A stretch of DNA of 64,000 bases from Rhizomicrobium palustre (GTDB taxonomy: Bacteria > Pseudomonadota > Alphaproteobacteria > Micropepsales > Micropepsaceae): contig NZ_JAASRM010000001.1 in assembly GCF_011761565.1 (NCBI RefSeq), positions 3,658,139 through 3,722,138 on the forward strand, read 5' to 3'. The notes under the pieces were generated by a model. That model was not told the origin of the DNA. It did no database searches and saw nothing but the letters and a program-made list of their open reading frames with translations. A program made the translations under genes and the position numbers. Of the stretch, positions 49,095 through 53,512 are shown piece after piece. The stretch's first letter is position 1, and every line of letters starts with the position of its first letter.

Positions 49095-50630
49095 TCACGG
49101 AAAAATCTGATACATCCAGGTTTCGGTGAGCGGCTTGCCGTTCGCCTGGATAAGGCAGCGCAGATTCACCGGCTCCTTGCCTTCGAACACCGCGTCGAAA
49201 ATGGCGCGCCAGCGATTGGTCCCGACTACCTTGATCGAGTAGGCCGCCGCGATATGGCCGCGCGACAACGTGATGGTCGGCTTCAGATCATAGCGCGGCG
49301 GCATATCGCCAAGCGGACCACCTTCGAAATCAATCGCGAAGCGGCGGGCATTGGGCATGCCTTGCGTGCCTGGAGCGCCGCCGCGCCCGATACGGGTCGC
49401 CACCACATGCGCAACGGATTTCGGCAGGAAAGGCTCTGGGTCTTGCCAATAGAGCCGGTAGTCCAAAGACATTGATCCGCCCGCGGCGAGCTTTGTCTTG
49501 GGCGTCCAATAGACCACGATATTGTCGTGGATCTCGTCATTGGTGTTGATCTCGACGAGCTGCACGGCGCCTTCGCCCCATTGCCCCTTGGGTTCAACCC
49601 AAACGCTCGGGCGTTTGTTGTAGAAGGCGCCGTCATCCTCGTAATTGGCAAAATCGCGATCACGCTGGATGAGGCCGAATCCTTTTGGGTTCACATCCAT
49701 GTAGGAATTGGTTTGCACCCCAGGCGGATTGGCGAGCGGGCGGTAAATGCGCTCGCCGGAACCGGTCCACAGCGCGAGGCCATCGCTGTCGTGAATCTCC
49801 GGGCGCCAATCGGCCGCCTGCTGATGATTGGCCTCGCTATACCAGAACATCGAGGTGAGCGGCGCAATGCCGAGACGATCAATGTCGGCGCGCGCGAAAA
49901 GCTCGGCATGGATGTCCATCACCTGACCTTTGCCCTTGCGAGTCTCGATGCGATAGGCGCCCGCGAGGCTGGGACCTTCGAGCAGCGCATAGACGGTGAT
50001 GACTCCATCTGGCGTTTCCGAGAGCCAGAAATTGGTGAAGATCGGAAACTCCTCACGCGTCGCCGTCGCGGTGTTCACCGCTAGTCCGCGCGCGGATAAT
50101 CCGTACTGATCTTCGCTGCCCGAAGTGCGGAAATAGCTTGCGCCCTGAAACGCCATCCAATCGCGTTCGGTATCGCGCCCATTCATTACACGGAATCCAG
50201 AAAAACCCGCCGTCGGCGGCAAGCTTTTGTCGAGACCTGTTCCACCCCAGTCAAAATAGCGCGGATGATAGAGCACCGGGCGCGCGCTATCGCCATTAAT
50301 CAGACTAATGCGTACCGGCTCTTGCACGGTTTCCCGCAAGGAAAACATGCGCACCGGATAGGGAAGGCCGGCGAACAACGCGCAATCGGGGCGGAAGCGA
50401 ATCTTTTGCGCGACGTCGTAATTGATCCCGCGTACCACGTCAGGCGCGGGCCGCGTGACCGGTTTATAGGCAGCAGCGGCAATGCTTTTGGCGTGCTTTT
50501 TCAGGCGATCAAAGCTGAAAGGATGCGGTGGGCCTATAATAAGGCCATCTTTCACGCCTTTTGCGCCTGCTGCTTTTATGGTCAGCGCAAATGGCAACGC
50601 ACCCAGAAAATGTCTTCGTGAAAACGGCAA
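49095..50630 (-). CDS. periplasmic glucan biosynthesis protein OpgG/OpgD with Tat signal
   Basis: 511 residues, start TTG 50630 behind AAGGA; no in-frame ATG exists before residue 90. FSRRHFLGALPFALTIKAAG is a twin-arginine signal, which favours OpgD over OpgG. The MdoG family body has NYDVAQKIRFRPDCALF, PYPVRMFSLRE, GFSGFRVMNGRDTERDWMAF, GASYFRT, TSMFWYSEANHQQAADWRPE and HDSDGLALWTG. OpgG/OpgD shape osmoregulated periplasmic glucans (beta-1,2-glucanase and branching roles). It is divergent from opgH with a 259-base shared promoter region, which is unusual since opgGH is commonly one operon. Confidence 0.93.
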   Translation of the reverse strand: MPFSRRHFLGALPFALTIKAAGAKGVKDGLIIGPPHPFSFDRLKKHAKSIAAAAYKPVTRPAPDVVRGINYDVAQKIRFRPDCALFAGLPYPVRMFSLRETVQEPVRISLINGDSARPVLYHPRYFDWGGTGLDKSLPPTAGFSGFRVMNGRDTERDWMAFQGASYFRTSGSEDQYGLSARGLAVNTATATREEFPIFTNFWLSETPDGVITVYALLEGPSLAGAYRIETRKGKGQVMDIHAELFARADIDRLGIAPLTSMFWYSEANHQQAADWRPEIHDSDGLALWTGSGERIYRPLANPPGVQTNSYMDVNPKGFGLIQRDRDFANYEDDGAFYNKRPSVWVEPKGQWGEGAVQLVEINTNDEIHDNIVVYWTPKTKLAAGGSMSLDYRLYWQDPEPFLPKSVAHVVATRIGRGGAPGTQGMPNARRFAIDFEGGPLGDMPPRYDLKPTITLSRGHIAAAYSIKVVGTNRWRAIFDAVFEGKEPVNLRCLIQANGKPLTETWMYQIFP

Positions 50631-50889
50631 GCTTAAGTCCTTTCGCGAAGGCTGTGACGAATTTCGGTAGGCTAATGCGCAAACGCCGAAAAAGCCGCGA
50701 GGCTTTTTGTGGCCCCTCAGAGATTCCGCATTAAGGACGAAATGTCGCCATTTCTTACCTCTACATCCAAACTGTCACGTCGTAACTACAAAAGCTGCGG
50801 AGTGACAAATCTGGGGCATATTCGCCTTCTGCCTCTGACATGTGTTTATGTCTTACGACACCTGTCTGGAGCAAGATGAGGAGACCAAG
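50631..50889. other. divergent promoter region of the periplasmic glucan genes
   Basis: 259 bases, AT-richer than the neighbours, between the TTG start of the opgG/D gene and the TTG at 50890 with GAGGAGA. A tract with several dyads near 50690-50720 (CGCCGAAAAAGCC...GGCTTTTTG) may be a hairpin. It probably holds both promoters. Confidence 0.5.
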
Positions 50890-51084
50890 TTGAAACGCGC
50901 GCCAGATACACGCACGATCCAGAGACTGCCCACTGCGCTCACGGCTCCGCCGCCACGTCCGCGTGCAATGCCTAAAGCTGAAATCGTAATTTGGACACCT
51001 GCGCTAGCTTACAGCGCTGTAATGCGGTCCATCGCCGAACTGTTTGCTAAGCCCGTCCGCGGCGCCCTGCGTGAAGAAGCCTGA
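50890..51084 (+). CDS. reading frame for an OpgH-like N-terminus, out of frame with opgH
   Basis: 64 codons from TTG 50890, which has the best ribosome binding site in the area (GAGGAGA, five bases before). The product contains APPPRPRAMPKAEI, like the conserved (A)PLAMPxQxL segment near the N-terminus of OpgH glucosyltransferases, then a helix (YSAVMRSIAELFAKPVRGAL) and a TGA at 51082. OpgH proper continues in the +1 frame from about 51071. Either this is the true opgH start split by a frameshift (natural or sequencing), or it is a small coupled gene. The first reading gives an OpgH of about 660 residues, a normal length. Confidence 0.6.
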   Translation: MKRAPDTRTIQRLPTALTAPPPRPRAMPKAEIVIWTPALAYSAVMRSIAELFAKPVRGALREEA

Positions 51085-52864
51085 AGCTACGCTCTTAACA
51101 CTGCGCTGGCTCTTTCTGGGCCTTGTGCTTGCCACCACAGCGGCAGGCATGAGCCGCCTCTGGAATCTTTTGCGCATTGACGGGATGAGCCTGCTGGAAG
51201 GGCTTTATCTTGTTCTCGTCGCTATTCTCTTTACCTGGATCAGCGCTTCTTTTTGGCTGGCCGCGTTAGGCGCCTATGCGTCCTGGCGCGGCATTGCTGA
51301 TTCCACTTTGCGCTGGCCAGACCGCCGCAGCATGACCACGCCGCCGCGTGCCCGCACGGCGCTGCTATGTCCGGTGCGCAACGAGGAAACTCGCCGGATC
51401 GTCGCTGGAATTGAAACTATCGCTGCTTCTATTCGCGAGGCGGGCGAGGGCGACTACTTTGATTTTTTCATCCTCAGCGATTCCAACGATCCCGAGCGCA
51501 TTCTTGCCGAAACGATGAGCTGGCAGGACATGCAAGAGGGGGATGGCCCGCATATCTATTACCGCCACCGTGAAGACAACAGCGGCAAGAAAGCGGGGAA
51601 CATCGCAGAATTCTGCCGTAACTGGGGAGCCCATTATGACTATATGGTGGTGCTCGATGCCGACAGCCTGATGACCGGCGAGACCTTGGCCTCGCTGGTG
51701 GCGCTGATGGAAGAAAACCCGCGCGCCGCGCTGATCCAGGTGGCGCCGCAACTTGTCGGGCGGGATTCGCTTTTCGCCCGTATCCAGCAATTCTCCTCCT
51801 CCGTTTATGGCCCGCTTTACGCGACAGGACTTTCACTGCTGCAAGGACCGGGCGGAAATTACTGGGGCCATAATGCCATCATCCGTATCCAGCCTTTCAT
51901 GGAACATTGCGGCCTTCCTGAGTTAAAGGGCCGTGCGCCTTTGGGCGGCGAAATCCTCAGTCATGATTTTGTCGAGGCGGCGCTTTTGCGGCGTGCGGGC
52001 TGGCGCCTGCATCTCGTCACCGAACTCACCGGCAGCTATGAGGAACCGCCGCCCACACTGATCGATCATCTCATTCGCGACCGGCGCTGGTGTCAGGGAA
52101 ACCTGCAACACATGCAGTTGATTTTTGGCCAGGGCTTCACCACCGAAAGCCGCGGCCACTTCCTTAATGGGGTGATGAGTTATCTGTCGTCGCCGTTATG
52201 GTTCGCCATGCTGATCGTTTCGGTTTTTGTGATCGTGGATCAGCCAGACATCGCGCCCGTCACTTATGTCGGGCGATATCCTGTGCTGGCGCTCGGCACC
52301 TCGCATGTCTTCGATTTCGTCGCGCTGGTGGCGGCCATGGTGCTGCTTTTGTATGGGCCGAAGCTTTTCGCGCTGGCGCTGCTGCTCAAAGACCGTGAGG
52401 CGCGCAAAGCCCATGGCGGCGGCATCCGCGCTAGCCTCAGTGTTTTGCTGGAAGCGATTTTCTCGACCCTTTTGGCGCCGATTTCAATGCTTTCCCAAAG
52501 CGCTTTTGTGGTGCGCATTCTGATGGGTGAGACGCAAGGCTGGGGGGCGCAGTTTCGCGATGAGCGCCGGGTGCGCACTTTGACGATCGCGCGTGCCTTC
52601 TGGGTGCATACGCTGATTGGTCTTTGCGCTGGCGCGGCGATCTATGTCTTTCTACCCGGCACGATCTGGTGGTTCACGCCGCTTCTGGTGGGCCCCATCC
52701 TCTCCATTCCCCTGGTGCGGCTCACCTCCAGCGTCAATGCGGGGATCGCAGCGAGGCGCTTGGGGCTTTTCTTAAGCCCTTCGGAGACAGGACGTATCCC
52801 GATTGCAGAGGCCTTGCGGGCGCGGCTCGAAGCGCCAGCCGCGTTAGGCCAGCTTCAGAAGTGA
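51071..52864 (+). CDS. opgH: glucans biosynthesis glucosyltransferase OpgH (MdoH)
   Basis: 597 residues if started at GTG 51071; that codon has no ribosome binding site and overlaps the upstream frame. Two N-terminal helices (LLTLRWLFLGLVLATTAAG and GLYLVLVAILFTWISASFWL) flank the usual position. The GT2 domain has LCPVRNEETRRIVAGIE, FFILSDSNDPE, VVLDADSLMTGE (DxD), ILSHDFVEAALLRRAGW and the RRWCQGN processivity motif. Four or more C-terminal helices follow. OpgH polymerises the beta-1,2-glucan backbone from UDP-glucose across the inner membrane. It overlaps the convergent receiver-domain gene by 21 bases. The N-terminal region is probably encoded in the other frame. Confidence 0.9.
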   Translation: MKKPEATLLTLRWLFLGLVLATTAAGMSRLWNLLRIDGMSLLEGLYLVLVAILFTWISASFWLAALGAYASWRGIADSTLRWPDRRSMTTPPRARTALLCPVRNEETRRIVAGIETIAASIREAGEGDYFDFFILSDSNDPERILAETMSWQDMQEGDGPHIYYRHREDNSGKKAGNIAEFCRNWGAHYDYMVVLDADSLMTGETLASLVALMEENPRAALIQVAPQLVGRDSLFARIQQFSSSVYGPLYATGLSLLQGPGGNYWGHNAIIRIQPFMEHCGLPELKGRAPLGGEILSHDFVEAALLRRAGWRLHLVTELTGSYEEPPPTLIDHLIRDRRWCQGNLQHMQLIFGQGFTTESRGHFLNGVMSYLSSPLWFAMLIVSVFVIVDQPDIAPVTYVGRYPVLALGTSHVFDFVALVAAMVLLLYGPKLFALALLLKDREARKAHGGGIRASLSVLLEAIFSTLLAPISMLSQSAFVVRILMGETQGWGAQFRDERRVRTLTIARAFWVHTLIGLCAGAAIYVFLPGTIWWFTPLLVGPILSIPLVRLTSSVNAGIAARRLGLFLSPSETGRIPIAEALRARLEAPAALGQLQK

Positions 52865-53266
52865 AGCGAGGGTTCGAACCAGTTCGTCTGGTGCGGCGGG
52901 CTTTTGGACGAGCGGCAGATGCCGCCAGGGATCCAGCGCGCTATGGGTGGTCTTCACACTGTAAAACAGAAACGGGACGCGCCGCTGGGTGAGCAGCTCT
53001 GCCACGGGCGTGACCAGTTGCTTGCCGAGATTGAAGTCGAGCGTGGCGCCTGTGATGTCACCTTCCCGGGCGCGCTCCAAGGCCTCGGCTAAGGTGGCGC
53101 AGGGCCCAATCACCTCGGCGCCTTCTTCCTCGAAAACGGCCTGAAGCTGCATGCCGATGAGGAACTCGTCCTCCACCACGAGAATGCGCGCGCCGCTCAG
53201 CGCCCCGCCGGGGGTAACGGGGGGGCTGGCATTCTGCCCGTCAGATTGGACCGAATTGGTCTGCAC
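52844..53266 (-). CDS. single-domain response regulator
   Basis: 140 residues, start GTG 53266 behind GAGGGAGA. A receiver domain only: ILVVEDEFLIGMQLQAVFEE, phospho-acceptor Asp in GATLDFNLGKQL, and Lys in LVQKPAAPDEL. The conserved Thr/Ser position is SVKT. The first 25 residues are a disordered Ser/Asn/Pro tail. Stand-alone receivers of this kind in alphaproteobacteria act in phosphorelays or general stress signalling. Its partner kinase is not adjacent. Confidence 0.9.
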   Translation of the reverse strand: MQTNSVQSDGQNASPPVTPGGALSGARILVVEDEFLIGMQLQAVFEEEGAEVIGPCATLAEALERAREGDITGATLDFNLGKQLVTPVAELLTQRRVPFLFYSVKTTHSALDPWRHLPLVQKPAAPDELVRTLASLLKLA

Positions 53267-53422: not shown

Positions 53423-53512
53423 TGGCGGATGGGGAGGGATTCGAACCCCCGGACCCCGTGAAGGGCCGTCGGTTTTCAAGACCGATGCAATCGACCACTC
53501 TGCCACCCATCC
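53423..53512 (-). tRNA. tRNA-Ser (UGA)
   Basis: 90 bases with a long variable arm. Acceptor GGATGGG pairs with CCCATCC, the discriminator is G, CCA is encoded, and the anticodon loop CTTGAAA gives TGA. Confidence 0.95.

Follow-up and report, generated by a model that had tools for sequence, protein, structure and literature searches.

A conserved small gene overlapping opgH in Rhizomicrobium palustre probably encodes a separate N-terminal module of OpgH

The opgG-opgH interval and its two overlapping frames

The window that we analysed, a stretch of 64,000 nucleotides from Rhizomicrobium palustre, carries a small gene flanked by opgG on the reverse strand and opgH on the forward strand (Table 1). 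The product of the small gene includes ...APPPRPRAMPKAEIVIWTP..., and its stop codon lies within the beginning of opgH, which is read in the next frame (+1) relative to the small gene; in the tally of frames for the genus given below, the window is scored as +2. The original prediction had located the start, ribosome-binding site and stop of the small frame and the frame of opgH correctly. It was also right in seeing no ribosome-binding site at the opgH start, as a simple scan found no Shine-Dalgarno match for that GTG. An in-frame TTG at 51044 offers a second possible start for opgH, and GTG 51071 is the start kept in G409 and G426, which are the nearest relatives and whose OpgH proteins are 75% identical to that of the window.

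Table 1. Features at the small gene and its neighbours, in positions of the window
Feature	Position	Strand	Description
Small gene	50890..51084	+	TTG start, 64 codons plus TGA (51082-51084); present in 29/29 readable opgH-bearing genomes of the genus; coding selection at the family level; motif match
Shine-Dalgarno site GAGGAGA	50878..50884	+	5 nt ahead of the TTG of the small gene
Motif stretch TAPPPRPRAMPKAEIVIW	50941..50994	+	Corresponds to PPEAPLAMPxQxL, with alanine in place of the usual Q
Overlap of small gene end and opgH start, 14 nt (GTGAAGAAGCCTGA)	51071..51084	+	Likely stop/start coupling site
opgH (mdoH)	51071..52864	+	597 codons, GTG start; NCBIfam NF003958 match
opgG	49095..50630	-	Divergent; Pfam MdoG PF04349, E 9.9e-179

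The downstream gene clearly encodes OpgH/MdoH: its product matches NF003958 with an E value of 1.5e-220 and 734 bits against a cut-off of 419, over profile positions 18-603 of 704. The host genome is a single contig of 4.26 Mb in which the locus is unique, and opgH is the only match at E 1e-60. Simple scans of 50600-51120 found no sigma-70-like promoter and one terminator-like site, the latter at chance level. Since opgG is divergent, the small gene and opgH form a separate unit in which the small gene comes first.

Several neighbouring features were recorded as well. opgG starts with TTG, and the N-terminus of its product, MPFSRRHFLGALPF, resembles a twin-arginine signal, a trait of OpgD rather than OpgG. 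A polysaccharide deacetylase-like frame (PF01522; 47988-49088, forward strand) ends 6 nt from the convergent end of opgG. On the reverse strand, a small response-regulator-like frame (52844-53266; PF00072 below cut-off) shares about 20 nt with the 3' end of opgH, and a tRNA-Ser with a TGA anticodon lies at 53423-53512, downstream of the opgH region.

Conservation and coding selection in the genus

The original prediction had read the two frames as an opgH split by a single-base slip, whether through a sequencing error, decay of the gene or a programmed frameshift, with a real small coupled protein as one further option. We searched 69 genomes of the genus and found opgH at E 1e-60 in 30 of them. 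One (G415, locus L064) runs off the end of its contig and was therefore not counted, leaving 29 readable genomes, the window included. In all 29, a separate open frame with the same motif lies upstream of opgH. The two-frame pattern is thus more than chance. The pathway itself appears patchy within the genus, as 39 of the 69 genomes (27 of the 48 more complete ones) gave no match at E 1e-60.

The junction of the two genes was compared by a fixed rule, with the starts of both genes in the relatives chosen by the analyst. The two genes overlap at this junction in 24 of the 29 members; in the other five, the small gene stops 8-18 nt before the opgH start. Most overlaps measure 8 nt (17 members, reading GTGCCTGA, ATGCCTGA or GTGTCTGA); five measure 4 nt (GTGA or ATGA) and two, one of them the window, 14 nt. 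The window shares with G409 and G426 the TTG start, an AGGAG or GGAG site and the GTG start of opgH. A TAG within the opgH match of G409 (L050) is the natural stop after residue 585, which the match had overrun.

The frame of the small gene relative to opgH is +2 in 19 members, +1 in nine and 0 in one, and the window (+2) is unlike its two nearest relatives (both +1). A programmed ribosomal frameshift would fuse both frames into a single OpgH of about 660 residues; the frames do overlap, and the order in the joined product, motif followed by synthase, matches that of fused OpgH proteins. However, such a shift is hard to reconcile with a frame relation that varies so closely to the window, with an opgH-frame start codon that overlaps the stop or follows it by no more than 18 nt in 29/29 members, or with the sequence at 51022-51090, in which the patterns tried revealed no XXXYYYZ heptamer, run of four or +1-type slip site. 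We regard a frameshift that sets OpgH levels as highly improbable.

A sequencing error or a decayed opgH is scarcely credible. Although a one-base change would join the frames, the genome is a single contig, the arrangement is the same in all 29 readable members of the genus, OpgH scores far above the family cut-off, and the small gene is under coding selection, as described below. Because the frame relation is variable, even against the two nearest relatives, a shared programmed slip, an error and decay are in effect ruled out. The relatives show no single split chain: the two frames overlap there too, the small product is conserved in its own right, and in both G409 and G426 OpgH starts at the counterpart of 51071. 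Thus, opgH is neither defective nor recoded, and what precedes it is a conserved small overlapping gene.

Selection on the small gene was assessed in eight pairs of genus members that have no sequence in common, the window lying outside these pairs. The pN/pS ratio was 0.40 in the frame of the small gene, compared with 1.20 and 1.65 in the shifted frames, and mismatches were distributed over the codon positions as 111/80/188 (chi-square P 2e-11). The shifted frames contain stops. Of 17 chosen pairs, 16 allowed dS to be computed, and their pairwise dN/dS values lay between 0.06 and 0.47. For the window itself, dN/dS was 0.14 against G426, with dS near saturation, and dS against G409 was not computable. 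At the family level, the small gene is therefore a real protein-coding gene under purifying selection in its own frame. Of the options originally offered, the small coupled protein is thus the one that conservation in the genus, coding selection and the overlap all favour, the coupling being the part that we infer.

In the window, opgH is most likely translated by restart, because its start lies inside the 3' end of the small gene and no ribosome-binding site is seen there. Ribosomes would finish the small gene and restart at the overlapping GTG, and such translational coupling would yield matched amounts of the small protein and OpgH. At the chosen start of the small gene, a Shine-Dalgarno match of at least 4 bases is present in 12 of 28 genus copies and absent from 16; at the opgH start, no match occurs in 18 of 28 copies and a weak one of 4-5 nt in ten. 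Coupling is less clear in some members, in which the Shine-Dalgarno match of the small gene is missing or a weak one for opgH is present.

A motif found in fused and separate proteins

The N-termini of fused OpgH proteins carry a motif, P...MPxQ-x-[LIF], that precedes the synthase's first membrane helix; small proteins of the genus have it as well, the window's copy in a form without the Q. To model the motif, we collected OpgH N-termini from outside the genus in which a P...M-x-x-Q pattern lies in frame, 51 in all, and used 49; L140 and L143, which were later found to lie beside separate genes of Verrucomicrobiota, had been removed before training. Upstream of opgH, every forward frame as well as the reverse strand was scanned. 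In 30/30 loci (the 29 genomes and one named record), the model ranked the small gene top, its score exceeding the best of the other forward frames and of the reverse strand at the same locus. The claim that the small frame encodes a segment resembling those near the N-terminus of OpgH was thus borne out by a model built outside the genus.

The window's own score was low (-1.8), yet it was the best upstream of opgH at its locus. The low score arises because this copy reads MPKAEI, compared with MPIQEI in G409 and MPTQEI in G426; the prolines and the M are kept, and A stands in place of Q. With motif positions located either from the model or from the pattern, the M is present in 29/29 genus copies and the Q in 24/29, the window being among the five copies that lack it. 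In the fused clade of 54 rows, M occurs in 53 and Q in 52. Two alignments, of 33 fused and 11 separate proteins, had shown P, M and Q without variation, but we dropped this as evidence; it was partly built in, because the rows had been picked by patterns that demand M and Q.

These data bear on whether translation of the small frame, rather than its product, could be what matters, the frame serving purely as a coupling or attenuation device for opgH. The good ribosome site of the small gene in the window, the opgH start with none seen and the tight overlap would all suit a leader of this type, and the window copy without Q could be drifting that way. Selection at the amino-acid level nevertheless points to a working product, as does the occurrence of the motif in the N-termini of fused OpgH, and we consider a mere leader quite improbable.

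Outside the genus, the motif occurs either fused within OpgH or in a separate gene ahead of opgH. In Hyphomicrobiales, Acetobacter, Xanthomonas and others it forms part of the N-terminus of OpgH, whereas a separate, usually longer gene precedes opgH in Alpha- and Gammaproteobacteria, Verrucomicrobiota and Leptospira. The survey of the class left out three listed places (G177, G350 and G406). We fully read 24 separate open frames from outside the genus, 17 of which encode 130-200 residues from the first possible start. A typical protein of this kind consists of a helical domain, then the motif, then a basic tail. In Verrucomicrobiota and Leptospira the basic tail of the Proteobacteria is replaced by a hydrophobic stretch resembling a membrane helix (rows L127, L140, L143, L155, L163, L178 and L190).

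The separate proteins form a family. Twelve from Alphaproteobacteria matched six others (two Methylococcaceae, one Competibacteraceae, one Opitutus-like, one unclassified proteobacterium and one further member of the class) by hhalign at 96.6%, E 5.9e-10, over 120 columns. An HMM of these 18 proteins matched 52 of 358 forward upstream segments at E 1, the 18 training rows included, and none of 1,135 reverse-strand control segments. Among the members that it added are Inquilinus, Thiocystis, Thiocapsa, Akkermansiaceae and Opitutae. Among eight separate proteins found by the HMM, the M is present in all eight, and the position of Q is occupied by Q in two, R in five and S in one. The HMM reaches 17 of the 29 genus members, weakly (E 9e-5 to 0.6), and gave no match to the window copy at E 1.

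Five plasmid loci were opened. On a plasmid of Sulfitobacter faviae (Rhodobacterales), the order is opgG, a gene for a 56-residue hypothetical protein with PPAAPLAMPRQSL, mdoH (opgH) and opgC. In Qingshengfaniella, a frame with PDAPLAMPKQAL precedes mdoH and is missing from the incomplete gene table of PLSDB. The plasmid locus of Sphingomonas paeninsulae has the fused form, and in that of Azospirillum argentinense no motif was seen. In Leptospira biflexa, a 129-residue hypothetical protein with SMVPKDSEW is encoded between opgD and mdoH.

Searches of Pfam and NCBIfam with the window protein and eight longer separate proteins returned only noise below threshold, and two annotated plasmid copies had no match in Pfam. 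The small gene thus belongs to a family that is often fused into OpgH and has no model in the libraries searched. No paper describing the family came up in a search of an open-access library.

An AlphaFold model of a fused OpgH (Chelatococcus composti) shows pLDDT values of 87-90 at residues 21-50, which hold the motif, with a helix of only four residues, as would suit an extended stretch that packs against the rest of the protein. In the separate protein L165, modelled alone, the motif stretch has pLDDT values of 61-79 and the helical domain at least 88. The first Foldseek matches of the fused model were cellulose synthase and similar enzymes, and the model of the separate protein found nothing better than E 3. 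A sequence search of the PDB with OpgH returned nothing at 0.001.

Fusion history and the probable role of the small protein

The relation between fused and separate forms was followed on a FastTree phylogeny of 171 OpgH proteins, from which duplicate, cut and short rows had been left out; labels (fused, split or none) were assigned by the analyst's inspection of the motif. The 54 fused MPxQ rows form one group with a support of 90, while 11 rows with a fused domain fall in three places with separate-gene rows between them. No motif was recognised, either fused or upstream, for 46 of the 171 proteins. The fused/split label requires four changes on this tree. It requires five on an 87-row IQ-TREE phylogeny, where four are forced by well supported branches; this tree omits L015 and the 46 rows in which no motif was recognised, retains 12 of the 28 genus rows and 28 of the 54 fused rows, and has five named records added. 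Taking the best of 173 rootings for each model, a history by fusion only requires five events on the 87-row tree and one by splitting only nine, so the separate state is the more economical ancestor, the long branches of Leptospira and Sphingomonas being placed unsurely.

Recurrent fusion is a classic sign of two proteins working together, and the fusion of this segment to the synthase elsewhere suggests that the small protein and OpgH do so. We tentatively propose that OpgH may ancestrally have had two subunits, a small OpgI-type one of about 56 to about 200 residues docking via P...MPxQ and controlling the synthase. Single-chain OpgH would then have arisen by several (four or five) independent fusions, and the N-terminal domain of the Escherichia coli protein would be a derived, captured subunit. 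This history is possible, but we hold it with less than even confidence.

In Rhodobacter sphaeroides, opgI is part of an opgGIH(-opgC) operon, and in 2002 Cogez reportedly found it to be needed for backbone synthesis. Complementation of an E. coli opgH mutant has been obtained with the R. sphaeroides genes opgI and opgH in combination (PMC10514313). The resemblance to the window lies in a separate gene in the neighbourhood of opgG and opgH, the R. sphaeroides order being taken from the operon name alone. In the window, a separate small gene likewise stands immediately before opgH and beside opgG, although opgG is divergent here; the likeness is one of gene position. No R. sphaeroides record was present among the 80 named loci kept of 589 or among 60 plasmid records. 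On the Rhodobacterales plasmid with opgG, a small gene, opgH and opgC, the small gene has the same two neighbours, and its 56-residue protein has the motif. The fused OpgH proteins of Hyphomicrobiales, Acetobacter, Xanthomonas and others share the motif but are one chain, unlike the separate, overlapping gene of the window with its copy lacking Q.

The third system for comparison is the cytoplasmic N-terminal region of E. coli OpgH, of which residues 1-138, expressed alone, inhibit FtsZ assembly (PMC3723540). This region is much longer and fused, and its likeness to the separate proteins is of low confidence; a low-confidence alignment places its SMFPDPW opposite the M.PQ of these proteins. 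Comparisons of the separate family with longer fused N-termini were uneven: 83% (set B versus fused set C), 64% for all separate proteins against a beta/gamma fused set that includes E. coli and 56% against a small fused set, with weak values of 2.9% (set A versus C), 0.6% (set B versus beta/gamma set F) and 2.5% (all versus E. coli alone). We therefore do not carry the FtsZ function over to the small protein.

A functional small protein could still have a main partner other than OpgH, FtsZ and acyl carrier protein being candidates. The FtsZ activity of the isolated E. coli region and the 64% comparison with beta/gamma fused N-termini speak for such a partner. The 2.5% match to E. coli alone speaks against it, as do the window's minimal form, which comprises the motif and short flanks only, and the recurrent fusion to OpgH, which points at OpgH itself. 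In Caulobacter, moreover, the N-terminus of OpgH was found to have little or no conservation relative to the E. coli region, and CcOpgH is argued to be likely to lack the FtsZ role (PMC11389396). We judge a different main partner unlikely.

We consider it likely that 50890-51084 is the gene for a separately encoded, 64-residue N-terminal module of OpgH, probably the counterpart of OpgI, that is coupled to opgH, docks on OpgH and is needed for, or tunes, backbone synthesis. The product is probably cytoplasmic and probably a minimal form of OpgI. It would dock on OpgH through the extended P...MPxQ segment, as the same segment seemingly does in cis in fused OpgH, and once docked it would be required for, or would modulate, synthesis of the glucan backbone.

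An apparent gene defect thus turned out to be a member of a conserved small-protein family for which the nine members tried found no Pfam or NCBIfam model. Trimming or joining such overlaps in annotation would lose a subunit. The short conserved motif provides a mutable handle on how OpgH is controlled. Furthermore, the need for opgI in R. sphaeroides, as opposed to E. coli, which does without it, may be explained if E. coli carries the module inside OpgH.
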